From Rhodoferax sp. (lineage in GTDB: Bacteria; Pseudomonadota; Gammaproteobacteria; Burkholderiales; Burkholderiaceae_C), in assembly GCA_013791765.1 (NCBI GenBank), contig VMTC01000128.1, positions 54,998 through 118,997 of the forward strand: DNA of 64,000 nt. Reading direction: 5' to 3'. Positions 1,266 to 58,161 of this stretch are shown here, piece by piece. Positions within the stretch are counted from its first letter, which is position 1, and every line of letters starts with the position of its first letter. The translations under genes were made by a program, and so were the position numbers. The notes under the pieces were generated by a model, which did not search any database, had not been told where the DNA came from, and was given only the letters and a program-made list of their open reading frames with translations.

Positions 1266-4200
1266 AGCCGATTCCACTTCATTTCGTTCACTTCGTTCAT
1301 TTCGTTCATTTCGTCCGTATCTTTCATTTCGATCAATGCGCCGTGGGCACTCAAGAACGCGGCCTTCACCACGGCGTCCGGATGGATCGCCTGCACCGCC
1401 GCCCGGTAGTGGTGCAACTGGGCCAGCAGCGCCGGCTGCTCCTGCGGCGCCGGGGCCGACTTGTAGTCCAGCACCCACCAATGGCCCGCGTGCTGCGGTT
1501 CCGCGCGCTGCACCAGACGATCCAGGCGCAGGCACTGGCCCCGGTACAGCAACTCAACCTCGTTGCCCTGCCAGGCCAGCACGCTATTGTCCCAGGCCCA
1601 GGCGCCCTCGCCTTGCAGGATACGCGCTGCCATCGCGGCGGCTTGTGCGCCCTGCTCGGGTGTGAGCGCAAATTCACGCGCGCAGGCCGCCACATTGGCT
1701 TTTGACGCCTCGCCCCATTCCAGCAACCGGTGCATGGCCAGACCCAGGCGGGCGCTGAGCGCATCAAGCGCATCAGCGCCCTCGCCGCTTCTACCCACAT
1801 CCAGCCTTGAACCATTTTTGATAGCTGTCGGCGCATATCCCACGTGGGCTAAAGGCAGTTCCTTTATATAAAACACCGCATTTTCTGCAGCCGGCGAAAT
1901 CAACGCCGCCGAGGTCGCGGTCTCGGTCGCTGCCAAGGCGACGGCGGCGGCGGGCGCCAGCGCCACCGGCTGGGCCAGCTCGCTCAGGCGCTGCCACCAA
2001 CTGCGCTCGGCGCTGCGGTAGGGCGCAATGCTGGAAATCGCGAGCGTGCGGCGCGAGCGCGTCAGCGCCACGTACAGGGCATTGAGCTCTTCGCGCTGGC
2101 GCTCGAGCCGCTCGGCCGCCAGCGTGGGCAAGCTGCATGCGGGTGGCTGGCTTTCACTGGCCAAAAACACAAATTTGCTCGGCCACGCGGCCTCGCCCGG
2201 CCAGTCAATCAGCACGCCCATGGTGTCGGCGTTGCGCTCGGGCGTGTCGGTATCGAGCAAAAGCACGAGCTGGGCCTCCAGGCCTTTGGCACCGTGCACG
2301 GTAAGCAGGCGCAGCGCCTGCGGGTTCACGGTGGCAGGCGCCAGCACGCCCCCGTTTTTGAGCGCGCGAACAAAGGCATAGGGTGTGGCAAAGCGGCCGC
2401 CGTCAAGCTGCAGCGACACAGCCAGCAAGGCGTTCAGATTCGCCAGCACGGCGTCGCGCTGGCTCGCCGGTGCCGCTGCCGCAAAACGCGCCAGCACGTC
2501 ACCGTCAAAGTAGATGGCCTGCAGCGCGTCGTGCGGTGGCCACTGGTCGAGCCAGCCTTTCCATCGCATCAAACAAGGCGCTAGCCATCGTCCATCTTGC
2601 GTGTATAGCTCTGAATGTTGTAGCACTTCAAACCAGCTCAACTCGTCAGGCGGCTGCGAATGCGCCTGCACCGCTTGCGCCAACTGCACCAGCGCAGCGT
2701 CCGGCATGTCAAACAGGGGCGACTTGAGCACGCGCGCCAGCGACAGGTTGTGCCGGGGCGACACCAGCACATCGAGCAGGGCCACCAGGTCTTGCACTTC
2801 GCAACAGTCAATAAGATTGGTTTTCTCGCCAATCTGGGCCGCGATGTGCAATTTACGCAGCTCCAACTGCAAAGGCAGCAAACCGGCGCGCTTGCGTGAC
2901 AGCACCATGACATCGGCCGCCTGCAGGCTTGGCCCCGGCGTTTCGGCGCTGGCCAACTGCTGCGCAATCCACTGGGCCGCCTGACGCGCCTCCAGGGTGC
3001 GCAGGGTTTCTTCAGGCAATTCGCGCGGCGTGCTCAAGCTGTCGCGCCAGGGCGCGCCTACCGCACCCTCGCCCCCGACCGCAGCGCGTTCGGGCCGGGC
3101 AATGGGGGGCAGCCGGCAGACCAAACCCACGTCGACCGCGCTGGTGGTATGCGCTCTGAAGCCCTCATAGCCATCGGCCTGCGCCGCCTGCGTCATGACG
3201 GCGTTCACGACGGCGATGACCCCGATGGCGTTGCGCCGGGTGTGGTCGCAACTGAGCAGATCGCCGCTCAAACCGTCGCGCACAAAGGCTTTGGCAGCCT
3301 TGAACACTTGCGGTTCGGCGCGGCGAAAGCGGTAGATGCTTTGCTTGGGGTCACCCACGATGAACACACGCGGCGCCGTGGCGCCACCGCCAGCGCCGAC
3401 GTAGCCGCTGAGCCAGGACTTGAGCGCCTGCCACTGCAGCGGGTTGGTGTCCTGAAACTCGTCGATCAGCAGGTGTTTGATGCGCGCATCCAGGCGCTCC
3501 TGCACCCAGCCGCAGAGCACCGGGTCGCTGAGCAGCACCAGCGCGGCGCGCTCCACGTCGTTCATGTCGACCCAGCCGTGCTCCCGCTTAAGCGCTGCGA
3601 ACTCCCTCAAAAGCGCCCGCGTCAGGCGCGCCATGCGCTGCTGGTAGAGCCAGGCCGCGTGTTGCAAGCGGGCCGCCAGCACGCGCAGCACCAGTTCTTG
3701 CGCCTCGCGCACGGCCTCAATACCGGCGATCTTCTCGCTGAACTTGCGCGGCGCGTCCTTGTCGGTCAGCAAGGCGGCAAACGCGCCCGAGAGGTCGCCG
3801 CGGGTGAGCGCCATTTCAAGCTCCACCCCTTTGGCAGAAAACGTCTTGGCACTGGCGCCGCCCAGGGCTTTTGCCGCCGCCAGCAGGGTCTGCCAGCGCT
3901 CCGGCTGGTCGCGCAAAAAATCATCGGGCGTAGCCAAATCGGCGAACTCGGGGAATTGCGTGCCAAAGGGCAGCACGGAGCGCAGTACCACCCCTTGCGC
4001 GTCGGCCAGGGCAAATTCGGTGCGCTTGTCGAGCGCGGTTTGCAGGGCTTTGTCGGTCTGCGCGCGGCCGTAGTCAAACACCACCGCCTCGTAATCAAAC
4101 TGCAGGGTCGCGTCAGTTGAATCATCGGGCGCATCACCCCCCCACTCGGAGCCCTCGACCGGCCTTGGCTTTGGGCGCAACAGCGCGGCATAAAAACGCC

Positions 4201-54415: not shown

Positions 54416-55249
54416 ATGTATCAAACAAATTTTCTGCCAATGCGCAGCGCGTCGCGGGCTGGGCTGGCACTGGTTGCAGCAGCCTTGGTCGGCTGTGCCA
54501 GTGCCCCCGCAGCCCATCCAGGCGATCCGCTGGAGTCCTTCAATCGCGGGGTCTACCAGTTCAACGATGCCGTTGATGGCGCCGTCGTCAAGCCGGTGGC
54601 TACGGCCTATCAAGAGGTGATTCCTGCGCCGGTGCGCCGGGGTGTGCGCAACTTTTTTTCAAACTTGCAGGATCTCTGGTCAAGCGTGAACAACGCCTTG
54701 CAGTTCAAAGGCGAACAAGCAGGCAATAGCCTGGCCCGCTTTGGCGTCAACACTTTCATCGGCCTGGGCGGCGTTCTGGATGTAGCCTCCGAGCTGAAGA
54801 TTGAGCGCCACACCAAGGATTTTGGCCATACCCTGGGCTATTGGGGCGTCGCACCCGGTCCGTATCTGGTGCTGCCCCTGCTGGGCTCGTCCACATTGCG
54901 CGACACGCTGGCGATGCCGGTGGATGCGCAGGGCAACCTGGTCTCTGGCATTGAGCACATTCCAACCCGCAACAGCTTCACCGCGTTGCGGCTGATCGAC
55001 ACACGTGCCTCCTTGCTGGGTGCCTCTGCCATGCTGGAAGAGGCGGCGCTGGACAAGTACAGCTTTACCCGAGACTCTTATCTACAGCGTCGGCGCAGCG
55101 GCATTTACGATGGCAACCCGCCTGACGATGGCCAGGTGGAAAAGTCGCCTGTGAAACAAGATTTCTCGGATGCCCGCGACCGCACCCGGGCCTGGGTTAA
55201 AACATTAAAAGAATCCGGCACGGCCGGTGATGAGAAGGAAAAACCATGA
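54416..55249 (+). CDS. mlaA: Outer-membrane phospholipid lipoprotein MlaA (VacJ)
   Basis: A 277-residue lipoprotein in the outer membrane that extracts mislocalised phospholipids and passes them to MlaC. The signal ends in lipobox LVGC, followed by DPLESFNRGVYQFND, the VacJ core, and GYWGVAPGPYLVLPLLGSST. ATG 54416 is preferred because GGGAG lies seven bases upstream; ATG 54398, directly after mlaD, is an alternative. It overlaps mlaC. MlaA is encoded inside the transporter operon, unlike in E. coli. Confidence 0.93.
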   Translation: MYQTNFLPMRSASRAGLALVAAALVGCASAPAAHPGDPLESFNRGVYQFNDAVDGAVVKPVATAYQEVIPAPVRRGVRNFFSNLQDLWSSVNNALQFKGEQAGNSLARFGVNTFIGLGGVLDVASELKIERHTKDFGHTLGYWGVAPGPYLVLPLLGSSTLRDTLAMPVDAQGNLVSGIEHIPTRNSFTALRLIDTRASLLGASAMLEEAALDKYSFTRDSYLQRRRSGIYDGNPPDDGQVEKSPVKQDFSDARDRTRAWVKTLKESGTAGDEKEKP

Positions 55250-55884
55250 AACGACGTTCATTCAACCATTTTCTCACGGCGCTGATTTTGAGCAGCTTGG
55301 GTGTGCTTGCTATGCCCGCCAGCGCCGCCGACGAAGCCCCGGATGCGTTTATCGAGCGCTTGTCGACCGAGGTTCTGAACGGCATCAAGGCCGACAAAGC
55401 CATTCAAAGCGGCGAGGTCTCACGGATCATCGACCTGGTGGACAAGCTGGTCATGCCCAACGTTGATTTCAAGCGCATGACAGCCTCGGCCGTGGGCCCC
55501 AAGTGGCGCCAGGCCACGCCAACGCAACAGCAGCGTTTGCAAGAAGAATTCAAAATCTTGTTGGTGCGCACCTATGCCGGCGCCTTGTCCCAAGTCAATA
55601 CCGTAACTTTCAATGTCAAGCCCATGCGCTCCCGGCCCGGCGACAAAGAAGTCGTGGTCCGCACCGAAATCCAGGGCCGCGGCGACCCAATTCAACTCGA
55701 TTACCGACTGGAAAAGACATCCGGCGTCGGCTCTGGCTGGAAAATCTACAACCTCAATGTTCTGGGCGTGTGGCTGGTCGACACCTACCGCAGCCAGTTT
55801 GCGCAGGAAATCAATGCCAAAGGCATTGACGGCCTGATTGCCACGCTGAGCGAGCGCAACAAGGCCAACGCCAAGAAGGGATGA
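55246..55884 (+). CDS. mlaC: Periplasmic phospholipid carrier MlaC
   Basis: A 212-residue soluble periplasmic protein shuttling phospholipids between MlaA and MlaFEDB. The signal peptide ends at ASA-AD (about residue 28), and the mature part (FKILLVRTYAGALS, VVVRTEIQGRGDPIQLDYRL, WKIYNLNVLGVWLVDTYRSQF) is typical of MlaC. It overlaps mlaA and mlaB. Confidence 0.95.
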   Translation: MKRRSFNHFLTALILSSLGVLAMPASAADEAPDAFIERLSTEVLNGIKADKAIQSGEVSRIIDLVDKLVMPNVDFKRMTASAVGPKWRQATPTQQQRLQEEFKILLVRTYAGALSQVNTVTFNVKPMRSRPGDKEVVVRTEIQGRGDPIQLDYRLEKTSGVGSGWKIYNLNVLGVWLVDTYRSQFAQEINAKGIDGLIATLSERNKANAKKG

Positions 55885-56192: not shown

Positions 56193-57170
56193 ATGCCCGC
56201 CATCTCCTTTCAGTCAGTATCCAAAGCCTACCCTGCTCCGCGCGGACCCCAAGGCAGTACTTTTCTGGCGCTCGACCGCGTCAGCCTGGATGTCGAAGAG
56301 GGTGAGTTTTTTGGCCTGCTGGGCCCCAACGGCGCGGGCAAGACCACCCTGATCAGCATTCTGGCCGGCTTGAGCCGCGCCACCGCTGGCCGCGTCACGG
56401 TGCTGGGGCACGATGTGCACCTCGATTACGCCCAGGCGCGGCGCAAGCTCGGCGTGGTGCCACAAGAACTGGTGTTTGATCCGTTCTTCAATGTGCGCGA
56501 AGCCTTGCGTTTCCAGTCCGGGTACTTTGGCATCAAGCACAACGATGCCTGGATTGATGAGCTGCTGGACAGCCTGGGCCTGGCCGACAAGGCCAACGCT
56601 AATATGCGCGAACTCTCGGGCGGCATGAAGCGCCGGGTGCTGGTCGCGCAAGCACTGGTGCACAAGCCACCCGTGATCGTGCTGGACGAGCCGACCGCAG
56701 GCGTGGACGTCGAGTTGCGCCAGACCCTGTGGCATTTCATCAGCAAGCTGAACAAACAGGGGCATACCGTCCTGTTGACCACACACTACCTGGAAGAGGC
56801 CGAAGCCTTGTGTGGCCGCATCGCCATGCTGAAATCCGGTCACGTCGTGGCGCTCGACAGCACCAGCGCGCTGCTCAAGTCCGGCACCAGCAACCTGTTG
56901 CGCTTCAAGATTGATGGCGAGCTGCCCGAAGCACTGGCATTACAAGCCCGCGTGACCGGGCGCGTGGTGCAGTTCCCGGCGCAGGACGCGCAGGCCATTG
57001 AGCGCTACCTTGCGGCTGTGCGTGAAGCCGGTTTGAGCGCGCAGGACGTGGAAATTCGCCGGGCAGATCTTGAAGACGTTTTTTTGGCAGTGATGGCCGC
57101 CCATGGCGACGAGGCCAGCAGCCCGGGTTCCGTCGCCAGCCTCCAAGCCAAGGGGGCACTGGCAACATGA
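56193..57170 (+). CDS. ABC-2 type transporter ATP-binding protein (YadG-like)
   Basis: A 325-residue ATPase with Walker A GPNGAGKTT, signature LSGGMKRRVLVAQAL, Walker B VIVLDEPTAGVD and an H-loop TTHYLEEAE. The length and partner resemble E. coli YadG. Its stop TGA (57168-57170) overlaps an ATG in a 5-bp duplication; the permease gene follows only after a 234-bp insertion (57172-57405). The substrate is unknown. Confidence 0.88.
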   Translation: MPAISFQSVSKAYPAPRGPQGSTFLALDRVSLDVEEGEFFGLLGPNGAGKTTLISILAGLSRATAGRVTVLGHDVHLDYAQARRKLGVVPQELVFDPFFNVREALRFQSGYFGIKHNDAWIDELLDSLGLADKANANMRELSGGMKRRVLVAQALVHKPPVIVLDEPTAGVDVELRQTLWHFISKLNKQGHTVLLTTHYLEEAEALCGRIAMLKSGHVVALDSTSALLKSGTSNLLRFKIDGELPEALALQARVTGRVVQFPAQDAQAIERYLAAVREAGLSAQDVEIRRADLEDVFLAVMAAHGDEASSPGSVASLQAKGALAT

Positions 57171-57171
57171 T

Positions 57172-57405
57172 CCTGGATTCCTCAGTTGGACGCGCCCGAG
57201 TGGGCTGCTGGCGGCGTGACCGGGTAGGCGCGACAACGCTGCAGGCTCATGCCTGCGAGGCGGAGCAACACCCCCGGGCGCGCGGCCAGTGGCTCAATCG
57301 GGTGCGTAGCGCTCTCACCCAAAAGGCGAGGCGCGTCGAAGCTGAAAAAGTCAATGGCCATATGGAGTTAGTAAAGAAATCAAGCGGTCAACTGAGGAAT
57401 CCAGG
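57172..57405. mobile_element. MITE-like element, 234 bp, with 17-bp terminal inverted repeats and 5-bp target duplication
   Basis: The left end CCTGGATTCCTCAGTTG (57172-57188) is the exact reverse complement of the right end CAACTGAGGAATCCAGG (57389-57405). ATGAT flanks both sides (57167-57171 and 57406-57410), the signature of transposition with a 5-bp target duplication. There is no transposase gene. An 80-codon frame runs from the ATG in the left duplication (57167) to a TGA (57407-57409) that overlaps the permease ATG. Without the element the ATPase stop and permease start would form a normal ATGA overlap. The family of the parental transposon is not assigned. Confidence 0.85.
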
Positions 57406-58161
57406 ATGATTGGCTGGAAGATGCTTTTTTACAAGGAAGTGTCGCGTTTCTGGCGCGTCGCGTTTCAGACCGTGGCCGGTCCGGTATTGACCGCCATGCT
57501 TTACCTGTTGATCTTTGGCCACGCGCTCGAATCGCATGTCAAGGTCTACGACACCATCAAGTACACCGCCTTTCTGGTGCCCGGTCTCGCGATGATGAGC
57601 CTGCTGCAAAACGCCTTTGCCAACAGCTCGTCGTCCCTGATCATGAGCAAGGTGATGGGGAATCTGGTGTTTTTGTTGCTCACGCCCTTGTCCTACCTGA
57701 ACTGGTATGTGGCCTACGTCGGCGCGGCGGTCGTGCGCGGTCTGGTGGTGGGCGCCGGGGTTTTTGCTGTCTCGGCCTTTTTTACCGATCTGTATTTTGT
57801 GGCGCCATTGTGGCTGCTCACCTTTGCGGTGCTGGGCGCAGCGCTGATGGGCACATTGGGGCTGATCGCCGGTTTGTGGGCCGACAAGTTTGACCAATTG
57901 GCGGCGTTTCAGAATTTTGTGGTCATGCCCATGACGTTTTTGAGCGGCGTTTTTTACTCCATTCATTCCTTGCCGCCGTTCTGGCAAACCGTGAGCCACC
58001 TCAATCCATTTTTCTACATGATTGACGGCTTTCGCTACGGCTGCTTTGGCATCAGCGATGTGTCGCCCTGGCTGAGCCTTGGCGTGGTCGCTCTGGCGCT
58101 GGCGCTGGTGAGCACGGTGGCTTTGCTGCTGCTGCGCTCGGGCTACAAACTTCGAACCTGA
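57406..58161 (+). CDS. ABC-2 type transporter permease (YadH-like)
   Basis: A 251-residue six-helix permease with the ABC-2 pattern, including VPGLAMMSLLQNAFANSSSSLIMSKVMG and PMTFLSGVFYSIHSLPPFWQ near the end. It pairs with the ATPase encoded upstream and resembles E. coli YadH. The start ATG lies in the duplicated ATGAT at the right end of the MITE-like element, so the insertion left the reading frame intact. Confidence 0.88.
   Translation: MIGWKMLFYKEVSRFWRVAFQTVAGPVLTAMLYLLIFGHALESHVKVYDTIKYTAFLVPGLAMMSLLQNAFANSSSSLIMSKVMGNLVFLLLTPLSYLNWYVAYVGAAVVRGLVVGAGVFAVSAFFTDLYFVAPLWLLTFAVLGAALMGTLGLIAGLWADKFDQLAAFQNFVVMPMTFLSGVFYSIHSLPPFWQTVSHLNPFFYMIDGFRYGCFGISDVSPWLSLGVVALALALVSTVALLLLRSGYKLRT

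Follow-up and report, generated by a model that had tools for sequence, protein, structure and literature searches.

The window analysed here, a stretch of 64,000 nucleotides from Rhodoferax sp. (contig VMTC01000128.1), carries on its + strand a series of genes whose Pfam matches read, in order, MlaD, MlaA, MlaC, STAS, ATPase, permease, BolA, EPSP-synthase family (murA-like) and HisG. We infer that the genes around the element described below form one operon. Between the ATPase and the permease lies an element of 234 bp (57172-57405), with inverted ends that are perfect over 17 bp and with ATGAT on either side. The features of this junction are the following:

56193..57170, + strand: upstream gene, ABC-2 type ATPase (Pfam ABC_tran); its stop is the TGA of the left ATGAT
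57167..57171, + strand: left target-site duplication ATGAT, containing the ATPase TGA stop and the start of the 80-codon frame
57167..57409, + strand: 80-codon open frame across the element, ending in ATGA, without a Pfam match
57172..57188, + strand: left terminal inverted repeat (TIR) CCTGGATTCCTCAGTTG, identical or present as a CCTA variant in other genomes
57190..57311, + strand: conserved hairpin with the + strand favoured (fold z −6.0, covariation, G-U excess), the core of model R1, which spans 57190-57331
57306..57331, + strand: conserved GTAGCG followed by a short hairpin-like stretch, with near-invariant columns
57389..57405, − strand: right TIR, identical to the left TIR over 17 bp
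57393..57398, + strand: Shine-Dalgarno-like TGAGGA inside the right TIR, 7 nt before the permease ATG
57406..57410, + strand: right target-site duplication ATGAT, containing the permease start codon
57406..58161, + strand: downstream gene, ABC-2 type permease (Pfam ABC2_membrane); its start is the ATG of the right ATGAT

When the window was searched for the TIR with at most three mismatches, only these two places were found, each with no mismatch, while shuffled controls gave 0.19 matches on average and two or more in 4 of 100 cases. The coordinates and this control agree with the preliminary description, which had recognised the 234-bp element, its perfect 17-bp ends and the two ATGAT copies from the sequence alone. 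It had also proposed that the left copy preserves the stop codon of the ATPase and the right copy the start codon of the permease, and both frames are indeed intact and matched by Pfam. Likewise, the 80-codon frame that it had read through the element is present, with a TGA that overlaps the permease ATG. Other ATGA overlaps occur in the window at 55246-55249 and 55881-55884.

Relatives of the permease were found in 59 of 60 genomes of the genus, including the genome studied here, and the junction was compared in the best-scoring 29 of the 58 relatives with a match. At all 29 of these orthologous junctions the insert was absent and a 4-bp stop/start overlap was present, which bears out the earlier assertion that the two genes would overlap if the element were removed. 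The 5-mers at these empty junctions of the best 29 of 58 relatives were ATGAC in 15 cases, ATGAA in 6 and other forms of NTGAN in 8; ATGAT was seen in none of them. The anticipated empty site was thus recovered as an overlap, and its expected spelling was not.

Nine places in the genome studied here match the element, two of them over all 234 bp. Besides the copy in the window, the other one of this length has 95% identity and is flanked by the duplication TTTAA. In a first search of 40 genomes, nine genomes had matches, that is, the source genome itself and 8 of the 39 others; a copy is also present in a genome of the same genus (G013). A scan of named genomes for CCTRGATTCCTCAGTTG returned at least 119 stretches, and among the matches listed were Rhodoferax, Polaromonas, Nitrosomonas, Azonexus and Oxalobacteraceae. 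Full-length copies with duplications are present in many records, so that the search for further copies suggested at the outset was productive both in the source genome and beyond it. With its TIRs, its 5-bp duplications and its dispersed copies at unrelated sites that lack an internal transposase, the element is a MITE, as had been proposed. The two flanks of one full-length copy (L030, 1501-1734) differ, one being TTTAA and the other ATGAT, as though this copy had arisen by recombination between two others. Short elements with similar ends were observed in an Opitutaceae MAG, one of 168 bp (L411, 1501-1668; L412 and L413 are the same place) and one of 176 bp (L395, 1358-1533), with TTCAC and TTGAA as their 5-bp duplications; neither L395 nor L411 was matched by model R1. 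Searches of phage records for the element gave no match, and viral contigs contained no exact TIR and no relative of the transposase of locus L168 described below. In the open-access literature that was searched, we found no report of the element, nothing on MITEs in Rhodoferax and nothing on covarying structured RNAs in proteobacterial transposable elements with inverted repeats, and stretches of the hairpin core used as text queries matched only papers that were unrelated by title.

To define the target of the element we considered 83 copies with duplications that differ by at most one base. These duplications follow the pattern W-T-N-A-W, with T at position 2 in 81 of the 83 copies, A at position 4 in all 83, and A or T at the outer positions in 77 (position 1) and 79 (position 5) copies. 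ATGAT fits this pattern and is an ordinary target; ATGAA and TTGAA fit it as well, which makes stop codons and ATGA overlaps ready targets. Judged from the duplications, the transposase would join 5-bp staggered ends at W-T-N-A-W sites, and an insertion at an ATGA overlap would duplicate both the stop and the start codon, leaving both reading frames whole as in the sequence of the present junction.

Such junctions were hit repeatedly. Among 76 copies, the duplication contained the stop codon of a long frame in 23 copies (the one in the window included) against 1.19 expected, the ATG of a long frame in 15 against 4.72 expected, and a stop and an ATG on one strand in 5 against 0.11 expected, where the expectations were derived from 2488 further WTNAW sites in the flanks of these copies and where the ATG of the window is missed because another frame outranks it. 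With a plainer rule and the window's copy omitted, 13 of 75 copies were stop/ATG overlap insertions against 0.67 expected. Both comparisons slightly favour the observed number since a copy was scored through either duplication and a control site through a single sequence. These counts exclude copies with short flanks, and the loci came from searches that were not aimed at ATGA. Altogether, 15 overlap insertions, 6 in sense and 9 in antisense orientation, were found among 100 distinct copies, three of the 15 (L311, L314 and L334) stemming from a search that was aimed at ATGA. L025, L149 and L171 belong to the 13 of 75 and not to these 15 junctions, and the reverse holds for L156, which has a short flank. 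Of the 13 overlap pairs besides that of the window that were inspected with Pfam, 11 had matches for both genes (RecC/UvrD-helicase of the recC/recB type, DctQ/DctM, NADH-dehydrogenase-like subunits, beta-eliminating lyase/LysE, ABC ATPase/ABC-3, FMN-binding/Rnf-Nqr, histidine kinase/LytTR regulator, MoeA/ThiS family, glycosyltransferase 9/GtrA, SHMT/NrdR and two branched-chain permeases), L314 had a match on one side and L156 on neither. Nine of the 13 insertions found with the plainer rule are matched on both sides, L025, L149, L171 and L273 lying outside the Pfam check. The idea that the element enters such overlaps precisely is therefore sustained by repeated hits at the same kind of junction, and the precision itself is now read as a consequence of the WTNAW rule, which contains ATGAW. 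The precision of the junction probably results from this target rule together with the loss of damaging insertions.

A candidate for the enzyme that moves the element was found on a plasmid of Polaromonas sp. P1-6 (CP087967.1; L414). There, a 1630-bp element at 858-2487, with TTAAA on both sides, is bounded by the ends CCTATTTTCGGCAGTTA and CCTAGAAACGGCAGTTA and contains a single transposase gene, and a 234-bp copy of the MITE lies 357 bp from it at 2845-3078, with the ends CCTAGAAACGGCAGTTG and CCTAGAAACAGCAGTTG, the flanks TTCAT and TTAAT, and the hairpin (135 bits). The end CCTAGAAACGGCAGTTA of the insertion sequence (IS) agrees with the left end CCTAGAAACGGCAGTTG of the neighbouring copy at 16 of 17 bases and its other end agrees with the copy at 12 of 17; the end of the element in the window shares 11 of 17 bases with the better of the two IS ends. 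Model R1 matches the MITE and not the IS in this locus, which argues that the interior of the MITE was not taken from that IS. A publicly annotated hypothetical protein (L414, 2903-3082) lies almost wholly within the MITE. The Polaromonas transposase scores above the PF13701 cut-off, and the two partner transposases match the NCBIfam IS1380 model NF033539 with E-values of 1.6e-45 and 1.3e-42, at 155.5 and 145.9 bits, below the cut-off of 180. Locus L168, from the Opitutaceae MAG, has the CCTA variant of the TIR 41 bp ahead of an IS1380-like gene, for which no far element end was found. This was the only transposase among the TIR loci searched, a lower bound since several of the ten query sequences were short wrong fragments. 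Complete elements, 1492 and 1493 bp long, occur in L224 and L226, of the same order as the Opitutaceae MAG, and have ends starting with CC and equal 5-bp duplications.

A 5-bp duplication is the rule in the IS1380 family, and the MITE has both this duplication and ends in common with an autonomous element. No PF13701 transposase was found in the source genome or in the copy-rich genomes G479, G480 and G047. The search for a full-length parent was consequently answered in part: the source genome contains none, and the IS1380-type element of Polaromonas adjoins a 234-bp copy and has partly similar ends. Two other candidates were rejected as direct partners. The IS1380 loci of the genus have, in some cases, the ends CCGAGATT..CATTAG or CCCAGATT..CATTAG, which are alike in style only, and the IS of G621 has other ends, CCTGAATCCGTG, in three of the four loci examined. 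G621 is a one-contig genome with 44 PF13701 matches, of which 18 share one score, and the IS ends in it (loci L371, L376, L381 and L383) differ from those of the hairpin-bearing element of G621 itself (L264). We conclude that the element is an IS1380-type MITE whose target rule explains its precise insertion; it would be a non-autonomous transposon moved by a DDE transposase of the IS1380 type.

The TIR also contains a motif that could matter for the downstream gene. Where the duplication begins with ATG, UGAGGA precedes it by 7 nt, and the same TIR faces the downstream gene in either orientation of the element. Pairing energies were computed with the anti-Shine-Dalgarno sequence, and among about 600 random 20-mers 3% reached −5.0 kcal/mol. 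Shine-Dalgarno-like pairing was present at 14 of the 15 overlap junctions with the element, a number that is partly built in since UGAGGA belongs to the TIR by which copies were found, and at 9 without it; it was stronger with the element at 10. The TIR variant of L266 and the Polaromonas ends lack UGAGGA. At the junction of the window, the native Shine-Dalgarno-like stretch that was lost is stronger than the one in the TIR (−8.6 versus −5.0 kcal/mol). The downstream-facing end may, where it has UGAGGA, supply a ribosome-binding site for the rebuilt ATG in either orientation. Judging by sequence, this putative site is a better candidate than the 80-codon frame for keeping the downstream gene on.

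The interior of the element folds into a strong hairpin. The z-score of the RNA fold is −9.2 for the element with its duplications and −6.0 for the inner 122 nt. In an alignment of 41 copies, 97.4% of the pair cells are paired and double changes occur in 28 of the 38 pairs, the 119 double-change cells comparing with 17.9 in shuffles, and structures slid along the alignment fall apart. Among 30 matches from more distant loci, double changes occur in 33 of 38 pairs and in 295 cells versus 81.1, although these matches were chosen and aligned by the model, so that the set leans towards the structure. The compensatory changes thus exceed those of shuffled and slid structures, as in a structured RNA. 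On structures predicted for the + strand, G-U pairs (GU+UG) outnumber A-C (AC+CA) by 218 to 12, and by 158 to 11 in a second count. The consensus fold has −65.5 kcal/mol on the + strand and −23.5 on the − strand; taken by itself, the sequence in the window also folds on the − strand (z −4.3). An AT-rich copy in a Thiotrichaceae MAG (L122) has the same fold with different letters (z −10.5). With E-values up to 0.001, the hairpin model matched 41 of 89 genomes of the genus (25 below 1e-10) and 36 of 369 genomes of the class (18 below 1e-10), the source genome being included in both sets, the weaker matches being partly a different repeat and few candidates being scored per genome. Rfam covariance models gave no match at E-values up to 1 around 57 kb (56900-57700), and none at the gathering score in 13 loci of the element. 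The covariation and the number of G-U pairs, far above that of A-C, show that selection maintains the interior hairpin on one strand.

Other repeats, whose inverted ends are quite unlike those of the element, also contain a related hairpin core of about 97 nt (AAGGCG.. with ..CAACGCC); these ends are CTAAGCTTCCATGAAGTATTGT.. in L287 (1398-1597) and forms of AGTGTANTGC.. in L286 (1190-1394), L288 (1501-1598) and L291 (1501-1630); in L286 and L287 two hairpins face each other. Next to the main hairpin of the element, the stretch after GTAGCG (57306-57331) is TCACC/GGTGA-like and reminiscent of the REP tag.

Several other explanations of these observations have to be weighed. That the insert is not mobile at all and represents a conserved structured RNA of the operon would account for a covarying hairpin. 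Its absence from all 29 junctions examined (the best 29 of 58 relatives) and the copies at unrelated sites with 5-bp duplications argue so strongly against this that its probability is negligible. A far more serious matter is whether the excess of overlap junctions reflects survival only, with insertion being even over WTNAW sites and only the harmless sites remaining. Copies within genes are far rarer than expected (14 versus 55.8 of the 76 copies, under gene rules that drop overlapping genes such as the permease of the window), as they would be if insertions within genes were mostly lost. Against an explanation by survival only, copies at stop overlaps are still enriched among non-genic sites (about 22 of 62 versus about 1.1 of 20), a comparison that is not decisive since insertions at promoters and leaders may likewise have been lost. 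We give survival only an even chance, and insertion preference and selection are inseparable in these data. With regard to the 80-codon frame, selection might maintain it as a small gene or as a device that couples translation from the ATPase through the element to the permease. The consensus of 40 copies has the frame open, as do 26 of 91 copies and 26 of the 59 with a length divisible by 3. Four of the six sense overlap insertions (L001, L204, L251 and L252), one of which is a 237-bp copy of about 65% identity, have it open between the left ATG and the right TGA, with an ATGA at either end, and 27 copies of 234 bp contain fewer stops than a star simulation that ignores shared ancestry (0.74 versus 1.21 per copy, sd 0.20). 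Yet given the 26 open frames among 91 copies, four of six in sense overlaps is unremarkable; the frame is closed in L156 and L334 and open in none of the nine antisense overlap insertions, three of which (L266, L273 and L311) lack the left ATG. It has no Pfam match, and codon-like conservation was not found, the third codon position being the least variable in 40 copies (0.178, 0.167 and 0.132 for the three positions). The open-frame counts and the variability by codon position rule out coding as a general feature, and the suggestion that translational coupling persists through the insert fails as a general mechanism. Coupling kept through this frame is weakly supported, selection for a small gene or coupling device is improbable, and the frame would rather be an incidental property of some sense copies.

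The hairpin itself is the most interesting and the least explained part of the element. Insertions into overlaps occur in both orientations, which makes it most likely that the hairpin serves the element and not the host mRNA at the insertion site. Relative to a long frame with its stop in the duplication, the folded strand was antisense in 24 and sense in 10 copies (34 of 82 copies; p-value = 0.024; counted with a loose frame rule and copies in loci up to L291). In many cases, then, the host transcript does not contain the folded strand, which again suggests that the hairpin serves the element. We consider it most likely that the hairpin does so either as RNA or as folded single-stranded DNA. 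The possibility that it is selected as DNA, as a cruciform or a folded single strand in transposition or replication, and not as RNA, agrees with the strand bias, by which read-in transcription often makes the other strand, and with the finding that 57100-57480 contains no sigma-70-like promoter and no terminator-like site. The preponderance of G-U (or G-T) over A-C is more RNA-like, though G-T is also a milder mismatch in DNA, and the difference between the strands in the consensus fold likewise speaks for RNA; selection as DNA is therefore a tenable alternative, if with somewhat less than an even chance. We regard as rather doubtful the more elaborate proposal of a self-mending junction insert, in which ATGAW targeting, Shine-Dalgarno motifs in both ends at a suitable distance from the duplication and a stem that joins stop and start would allow reinitiation in either orientation, and in which the element would need its interior, as a new structured RNA that many proteobacteria have in common, for its own spread. 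The explanation that we favour, a MITE with an IS1380-type mover, WTNAW targets and a one-strand hairpin that serves the element, is taken as a whole quite likely to be correct. It offers a testable rule for the entry of transposons into tight operons with neither gene broken, namely a stop/start overlap that falls within the target rule. In addition, a strongly covarying hairpin in many proteobacterial genomes, with no Rfam match where tested, may point to an unrecorded class of mobile structured RNAs or DNA hairpins.

Among known systems, the IS1380 elements of the ISEcp1 type and their MITEs share with the present element short TIRs starting with CC, AT-rich duplications of 5 bp and PF13701 in the likely partner. 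The ends of the element resemble those of ISEcp1. Unlike in that family, the partner transposases remain under the NCBIfam IS1380 cut-off and R1 is absent from the Polaromonas IS. REP sequences are GTAG-tagged hairpins that are moved by RAYT transposases; the element is similar in its conserved GTAG adjoining a short hairpin and different in having TIRs and 5-bp duplications, and the likeness of GTAGCG to the REP tag is a lead only. Correia elements, with which the name NEMIS is coupled, and ERIC are likewise small and hairpin-forming, but they have other ends and other hosts. Both have been described as small hairpin-forming elements in transcripts, with RNase III cleavage for Correia and mRNA effects at the 3' ends of genes for ERIC (PMC10969869); the passages on them in that source are silent on covariation and on stop/start overlaps. 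For Coxiella burnetii, QMITE1 and QMITE2 were reported to have stable hairpin transcripts, QMITE2 being located mainly in 3' untranslated and intergenic regions and carrying a GTAG REP (PMC5896051). In contrast to the element studied here, QMITE2 is described there with duplications of 7-11 nt and for one species.
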